The notes under the pieces were generated by a model. That model was not told where the DNA came from. It worked only from the letters and a program-made list of their open reading frames with translations, and made no database searches. Of a DNA stretch of 64,000 nt, positions 40,730-43,700 are shown one piece after another (positions within the stretch are counted from its first letter, which is position 1; each line of letters starts with the position of its first letter). A program made the translations under genes and the position numbers. Origin of the DNA: Blastocystis sp. Blastoise (Eukaryota > Sar > Bigyra > Opalinata > Blastocystidae); NCBI GenBank assembly GCA_039096225.1, contig JBBPEB010000023.1, positions 372,501-436,500 on the forward strand, in the 5' to 3' direction.

Positions 40730-43700
40730 TTATTCAAAATCATATCTAGCTTTTAATACATATAATATATTACGATTCATATGTTTTTTATATAATTCCC
40801 AATTTGTTCCTTGTAACTGTTTAAATCCTAAAAGTATCTGTTGGAACATAGATAATAACTCCGGATTCATCGTGTCATTCCTATATAGAGAGTTATTGAA
40901 TGAATAATATATATAAACTCTTTAGAAATATGTCTAGTGATATTTATTATTATATACTAATAGTATTATAAACTTTATTAATAATAATAATAATAATAAT
41001 AATAATTATATATATACCATGAACATATAATAGTACAAATCTTTTCAAAATAAGTTCTTACATATTCTTCATTATATTGTATAATCATGCATACACCACG
41101 ACTAGCTTCATCCTTCTCCCTTCCATCTCTATAATAATAATAATAATGATAATAATAATAATAATAAAATTCAAATAATAATAATAAATATAAATAAATT
41201 AACTATATATATATACAATAAAGTAGAAATTGCAGTACATAATTCGCCATAATTCTCACCAATGAATTGACTCATTTCTTGAGGGATAGCGAGACACAAT
41301 CTTCCAAATGTAACGGCACAGTTATCACGAATATTATCTGGTAACTCATCTAACTGATCTAATAGAGGGAACAATGGAGCAGATATAAGTGATAAGTATA
41401 TATATTAAGGAGTATAGAATAATAAATATAATAATAATAATAATAATAATAATAATAATAATAATAATAATATATAAAAGGATATATGTTGACTAATATT
41501 TGCCATTTCTTTCATGGTAATTTCTCCAATACTCCAAATACTATTATTACAAACACGAGGATAACTATATTCATAATAAATATAATAATAATAATAATAA
41601 TAATAATAATAATAATAATAATAATAATAATAAGTATTATAAATATATATACTCTAAATCAATATTCTTAGCACAAAGAGTAAGTAGTTCTGGAACAACA
41701 GGTTCTATATATGTATATAAATATAATGCTAAATCACCTAATAAAGCGATAGAAGACTGACGAACTTCAGCGTTACTATCCTATATATAATAGTAATAAT
41801 AATAAATCAATACATATATATACATAATAATAAATATAAATATAGATATAAATATAATAATAAATATACTTTCATTCCTAAAACAATTGTATTTAATAAA
41901 TTCGATTCGTTAACAACAGTGTACAGACCCCCTTTGACGGTATCCACCATCGAACCAATCAAATCCATAGCACAAGATATATACATTTTATCACATTTAT
42001 CTTCAATCTATATATAATAATAATAAATTGAAAAATAATAATAATAAAGATAATAATAAACTAAAATATAAATATAAATATAAATATAATAATAATAATA
42101 ATAATATTATTATATACATCATCAGATGCATATTGCACAAAGACGGAATCAATAATCTTAATGCAGCGTCTATATATATCAGGAATATATGCTGACATAG
42201 TATCCCCTAATGCCTATAAATAATAATATTAATAATAATAATAATAAACAAAAACATAATAATAATAATAATAAACATAAACATAATAATAATAAAAACA
42301 TAATAATAATAATAAACAAAAACATAATAATAAACATAATAATAATAATAATAAATATAAACATAATAATAATAATAAACATAAACATAAACATAAACAT
42401 AACCATAAACATAATAATATCTATACAAGAATAACATAGATCATGCATTCTAGAAGAGATAGCATGCCATCGTCAAGATCATTTAACGATGTCCAACGAG
42501 TTATTAATATAGGTAAAATAATTGAAGGGCAATTCCCGCGGGAAAGACGTTCAGGCATATGTTCAGCTAATGCTCCGAGAGCTTCAAGTAACATTCGAGT
42601 ATTCTTTTCCTATATATATATATATATTAATAATAATATTATTAATAATAAGCATAATAATAAATAGAATATATACATTATAAAGAGTAAAACAATCACA
42701 TATAGTAGAGAAGATTGCATCAAAGTATTTATTCATATATAACCATTCATCATTCTCAATGAGAACAGATAAGCAAGAAGTAGAAGTATGCTGGATCTAT
42801 ATATATAATATATATATACATATACATATACATAATAATAATAATTATAAACATAATAATAATAATAATAATAATAATAATAATAATAATAATAATAATA
42901 ATAATAATAATAATAATAATAATAATAATAATAATAATAATAATAATAATAATAATAATAATAATAATAATAATAATAATAATAATAATAATAATAATAA
43001 TAATAATAATAATAATAATAATAATATATAAAACATAATAATAATATATACTTTAGAATTATTATGTTTCATTGCTTTTAATAAGCAATCAACAATACTA
43101 GGTAAATATGCATCTTCCCCGCGGGAAAATACGAAATTAGAGTATCTTCCAATACACCATGATACTGTTCCAAAAAGTGAGCTGTTTGGGGGATTTAAGA
43201 GGGATTGAAGGAGGGCACTATATAGTGATAGTTGTCATTATTTATTAATTTTAATATAATAAATAGAAGAAATAGAATAAACATAATGATAATAATAAAT
43301 AGAATAAACAATATATATATATATATATAACTATATATATAACTCTATACGGCATGATAGTATTAAGTTCTTGTGTGAGATCTTCTTGGCATCCTTCAGA
43401 AATAGCACCAAGACATAATATACCACTCTCTACTATATACCATGAAGGGGAAGACAAACAGGACTATATATATATATATAGAATATATAGGGAATATAAA
43501 TAGTTAAATAGAATATAAATAGAATATATAGGGAATATAAATAGTTAAATAGAATATAAATAGAATATAAATAGAATATAAATAGAATATATGATATAAT
43601 ATATACTAAATAATGAAATAATATATATATATACTTCGATAGGTTTTAATATAAATTGAAGTATATTATTGGTATATGTAGTAGCTACTTGTTCTAAACA

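Follow-up and report, generated by a model that had tools for sequence, protein, structure and literature searches.

Does the transportin-1 (karyopherin beta-2) gene of Blastocystis sp. Blastoise (Stramenopiles, Opalinata) contain an intron that is removed by the minor spliceosome? The question is raised by a 90-nt interval on the minus strand of the 64,000-nt stretch of DNA that we analyzed (the window; 21.5% G+C), taken from an assembly of 33.3 Mb. The original prediction had read this interval, at positions 41396 to 41485, as an AT-AC intron with U12-type signals, and both its sequence and its coordinates proved to be exact. We constructed a splice model of the gene by hand, giving 17 exons at 40730..45386 (minus strand) and a protein of 869 residues. 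In this model, the interval separates an upstream exon ending in ...MANISQH (41486..41564, minus strand) from a downstream exon starting with LSLISAPLF (41217..41395, minus strand). The interval had also been said to differ from the introns around it, and this was borne out: all 15 other introns of the model are GT-AG, with the donor GTATAT in 12 cases, GTATAG in two and GTATTA in one, and 14 of them end in TATAG. Long ATT/AAT triplet arrays fill positions 42797-43051 of the window and other transportin introns.

Introns of the U12 type have AT-AC or GT-AG ends, the donor consensus RTATCCTT and, towards the 3′ end, the branch motif TTCCTTRAY. The 90-nt interval is laid out as ATATCCTTTT...TCCTTAAT-ATATATAC. 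Its start, ATATCCTTTT, fits the donor consensus at 41485, the donor itself reading ATATCCTTTTATAT and the acceptor ATATATAC ending at 41396. The 5′ splice site ATATCCTTTTAT (41474..41485, minus strand) is of the U12 type, and CCTTTTAT within it is complementary, with one G-U pair, to the U11 5′ end AUAAAGGG. The branch-site motif TCCTTAAT (41404..41411, minus strand) is complementary to the GUAAGGA of U12 when the pairing is made by eye and the branch A is bulged, and the C of the 3′ splice site AC (41396..41397, minus strand) is the eighth base past this motif. A branch site of TTCCTTAAY had been claimed; its position near the AC was right, but the wording was one base off, as the actual stretch is CTCCTTAAT, with one mismatch to TTCCTTRAY at the first base. 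The composite motif (ATATCCTTT, 20-200 nt, TCCTTAAY, 2-14 nt, AC) occurred a single time in the window and never in 40 windows simulated by a first-order Markov model, counting both strands. When the window was scanned with a relaxed pattern for further U12-type introns, eight lines were returned, with an exact TCCTTAAY only for the one at 41485. The candidate at 36501 on the minus strand was rejected because it sits within an open coding frame.

Removal of the interval at AT and AC is in phase 0, joins the frame and restores the transportin without loss of any residue aligned to the human protein. The modelled protein aligned to human transportin-1 over residues 2-851 (best chain, 456.2 bits). 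Close to the AT-AC junction the alignment has a single gap of one residue, in line with the predicted restoration of human residue spacing; as also predicted, the unspliced reading runs into a TAA. The deposited protein from the same organism, WA158_007852, agrees with our model except for a 15-residue gap located exactly at the AT-AC intron (853 identities over 869 columns). From this gap and the sequence, a 135-nt GT-AG intron, GTCAAC...TATTAG (41359..41493, minus strand), would explain the deposited protein. If this ordinary intron were the real one, the 15 residues would simply be missing from this transportin and the reading frame would still remain open, as the otherwise identical WA158_007852 would have it. 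We consider this very improbable. None of the 15 other introns has a donor like GTCAAC, as theirs begin with GTAT, and the U12 signals enclosed in the 135 nt would have to be a coincidence of a kind seen in none of the 40 Markov windows. Moreover, the deposited protein lacks residues for which human transportin-1 has aligned counterparts, and so it scored only 443.5 bits against the same human transportin-1 chain, 12.7 bits below the AT-AC model. From the sequence, we judge the 135-nt intron to be a misannotation in which GT-AG ends were forced onto an AT-AC intron, and other AT-AC introns in this genome may have been misannotated likewise. A second homologue search returned the same deposited protein only, so there was no other Blastocystis transportin to align.

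AT-AC introns that are removed by the major (U2) spliceosome form a rare class known elsewhere. According to the portion of PMC3584512 that we drew on, the U12 type is not defined by AT-AC ends alone, and those ends would also suit an intron of that class. It is nevertheless extremely unlikely that the major spliceosome removes the transportin intron, whose donor is the full U12 consensus, whose branch motif is one base off, and whose genome contains minor snRNA genes. The 90-nt stretch is thus, as far as its sequence can tell, almost certainly a U12-type (minor spliceosome) AT-AC intron of the Blastocystis transportin-1 gene.

The original prediction had proposed searching the genome for U11, U12, U4atac and U6atac RNAs. 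Rfam family searches over the 33.3 Mb gave one match for each of the four, two of them above the family cut-offs (U6atac, 63.8 bits against 33; U11, 62.9 bits against 39) and two below (U12, 46.8 bits against 53; U4atac, 29.7 bits against 53, with a genome E-value of 0.045). At loose limits, U11 was also matched in 3 of 14 control genomes and U4atac in one, none of these matches exceeding a cut-off. The U12 match retains AACUAAUGAGUAAGGAAA and the branch-reading stretch GAGUAAGGAAA. The 5′ part of the U4atac match is complementary to the U6atac of this organism where both leave the consensus (UCGUCCUUAUCG against CGAUAAGGACGA), with a duplex energy of -32.1 kcal/mol. In addition, an upstream element, CTTCTAATCA, is common to U12, U6atac, U11, U4atac and U6 (L001, L002, L003, L004 and L037, respectively), lying 57-64 nt 5′ of each, and at -64 in U6 as in U6atac. 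Elsewhere, in 526,924 bases counting both strands, there was a single CTTCTAATCA. It looks like a promoter element for the snRNA genes of this lineage, more of which could be found by searching for it. The genome therefore encodes U11, U12, U4atac and U6atac, with U12 and U4atac backed by the upstream element and by complementarity. The U6atac gene (near 544.9 kb) lies ~7 kb from a U6 gene (551.6 kb) on the same strand of contig G000:C21.

Matches were also present for all three minor-specific protein domain families that we looked for, including the 48K type, one of the proteins whose search had been suggested at the outset. The 48K-type finger (PF05253) gave a best score of 40.5 bits; two of the 14 control genomes matched this family, one of them above the cut-off. 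The SCNM1 family (PF15803) matched at 35.1 bits, and the 25K family (PF18036) at 45.9 bits for two neighbouring pieces; we take both families to be linked to the minor spliceosome. A working U11/U12 spliceosome had been claimed from the intron alone. The snRNA and minor-type domain matches uphold the presence of its parts, and genes of this kind suggest that it works.

In the standard scheme, as given in the part of PMC3584512 consulted, U11 together with 48K reads the donor and U12 the branch site, after which U6atac takes over at the donor. Applied to the transportin intron, U11, through its 5′ end AUAAAGGG and with 48K, would read the donor CCUUUUAU, and the GUAAGGA of U12 would pair with UCCUUAAU, leaving the branch A bulged. 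U4atac/U6atac/U5 would join next, U6atac would displace U11, and cuts at AU and AC would free the intron. The start of U11 is complementary to CCUUUUAU with one G-U pair and the U12 GUAAGGA fits UCCUUAAU, and on these sequences the U11-donor and U12-branch steps look ordinary. By analogy with the standard scheme, the snRNAs are presumably made and splicing presumably takes place at the AU and AC bases.

Genome-wide, RTATCCTT and a later TCCTTAAY gave 33 matches at a spacing of 52-82 nt, against 9 for a reversed-pattern control, and 35 against 18 at a spacing of 21-51 nt. These 68 pattern rows yielded 60 with loci and 58 distinct candidates. In raw counts, the frame stayed open in 40 of the candidates when they were joined at some AC or AG. 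A stricter AT-AC test, which called for an AC 4-15 nt past the motif, an open frame and a G+C content below that of both flanks, was passed by 29 of the 58 (again a raw count), the transportin intron among them. The 29 span 61-104 nt, the search patterns being blind to much shorter or longer introns. Phase counts among them were skewed to phase 0; since our script kept the first open frame, we draw no inference from this. They include a near-identical pair (L016 and L026), the same mitochondrial carrier AT-AC intron on C5 and C20, which looks like a recent duplication. From 35 spliced candidates, we picked by hand 10 recognisable-looking peptides for a Pfam scan. Nine matched a family, and in eight of the 10 the match spanned the junction (mitochondrial carrier, Sec7, DNA polymerase A, helicase C-terminal, NAGLU, Vps35, bicarbonate transporter and Hikeshi-like); a ribosomal L15-type match lay beside the junction, and one peptide had no match. 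With no constraint on donor bases 5 and 6 but a stricter branch motif, the genome gave 53 matches and the control also 53, so this pattern shows no overall excess. CC stood at donor positions 5-6 in eight of these 53, compared with ~0.6 expected from base composition (hand arithmetic). Ten of the 53 were copies of one repeat starting ATATCTTTCTTTGATTCTGAACTTC, found at ten places on G000:C1, C6, C7, C10, C11, C20 and C31, several of them near contig starts; this repeat is possibly subtelomeric or mobile.

The U6atac gene (L002, G000:C21:544821-544937, minus strand) carries the box GAGCCGAGA compared with the consensus GAAAGGAGA, within a wider context of UUGAGCCGAGAGAAGG compared with aUGAAAGGAGAGAAGG in the Rfam consensus, and the donors still read ATATCCTT. 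With GAGCCGAGA in place of GAAAGGAGA, most of the pairing to ATATCCTT donors is lost. An AAGGAGA box complementary to the donor is thus lacking from this U6atac, which is a matter of the machinery and not of the intron's own signals. In the human register, only U4 and C5 presumably remain in contiguous pairs with the GCCGAGA box. The mean duplex with the 29 donors was -2.98 kcal/mol for the 5′ part of the U6atac found here and -7.43 kcal/mol for the Rfam consensus. This duplex test is statistically weak: shuffles paired as well in 179 of 200 cases for the U6atac here and 40 of 200 for the consensus U6atac, compared with 38 of 200 for the genome's U11 and 2 of 200 for the consensus U11. The contrast between the U6atac here and its consensus is therefore clearer than that of either with its shuffles. 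We rejected the idea that the donors co-evolved with the changed box, as donors fitting it (RTATCGGY with the branch motif, 55-85 nt apart) gave no match genome-wide, against two for the control.

One possible reading, which we hold tentatively, is that the AAGGAGA box that reads the donor has become GCCGAGA in the sole U6atac gene found, with ATATCCTT retained in the introns, so that donor identity would rest on U11/48K and protein contacts and the U6atac-donor helix would be largely dispensable. U6atac-donor pairing is reportedly required in vivo, to go by the title of a 1998 paper. According to the sections of PMC8283771 consulted, perfect conservation of the interaction made by the AAGGAGAGA box, which human U6atac has, is a hallmark of the minor spliceosome. 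The box found here differs at three adjacent positions from that stretch, as might be expected if the working U6atac were another copy, with a normal AAGGAGA paralogue missing from the assembly or missed, or if the box were an assembly error; splicing would then be ordinary. A whole-genome family search, moreover, scores best candidates only. We regard this explanation, too, as plausible at somewhat less than even confidence. Against it, the U6atac core AGAGAAGGTTAGCA has a single exact copy in the 33.3 Mb, and of its three one-mismatch matches one is U6 and two lie at places without an snRNA match. The gene found also shares with U6 the -64 position of the upstream element, ends in a T-run and shows the matched pairing with U4atac. 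A scan of genome_contigs for a U6atac core gave no matches. The box change, then, may be real, may be an assembly error or may reflect a missing paralogue. We found no mention of a changed U6atac box in Blastocystis in the parts of PMC5608401 and PMC10639083 that were available.

Minor introns have been described in this genus, a fact absent from the original prediction that lowers the surprise of the finding. Gentekaki et al. 2017 (PMC5608401) report for Blastocystis ST1 346 U12-type introns, typically AT-AC, together with the complete set of four minor snRNAs and seven proteins specific to the minor spliceosome; in ST7, too, minor introns and components are identifiable. Since minor introns are published for ST1 and noted for ST7, the AT-AC intron here is a further case of a known Blastocystis phenomenon. 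The consulted portion of PMC10639083 gives 253 minor introns for ST1, 77% of them AT-AC. AT-AC, the type of the transportin intron here, predominates in ST1, and roughly half of the ST1 minor introns are, like it, in phase 0. ST1 minor introns, however, average just under 42 bp (PMC10639083, in part), compared with 61-104 nt for our 29, a range limited by the search patterns. The genomes differ as well, at 33.3 Mb with 21.5% G+C in the window here compared with 12.9-18.8 Mb and 39.6-54.6% in ST1, ST4 and ST7. The AT-AC minor introns of humans are alike in their ATATCCTT donor, TCCTTAAY branch motif and AC shortly 3′. They differ in the AT-AC share among human minor introns, ~26% (PMC10639083, in part), and in the U6atac box, AAGGAGAGA in humans (PMC8283771, in part) and GAGCCGAGA here. 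Among fellow stramenopiles, the oomycetes Phytophthora and Saprolegnia likewise retain minor introns, numbering from a few to dozens in each genome, according to the same portion of PMC10639083.

With this finding, AT-AC minor splicing comes to include a Blastocystis with a larger genome and a very high A+T content, in which the CC kept at the donor and the branch site is conspicuous at ~21% G+C. It also points to a class of gene-model error, the forcing of GT-AG ends onto AT-AC introns. In human cells, the U6atac-donor helix is regarded as required; if our reading of the U6atac box holds, this organism would be a natural experiment on whether that pairing is necessary.
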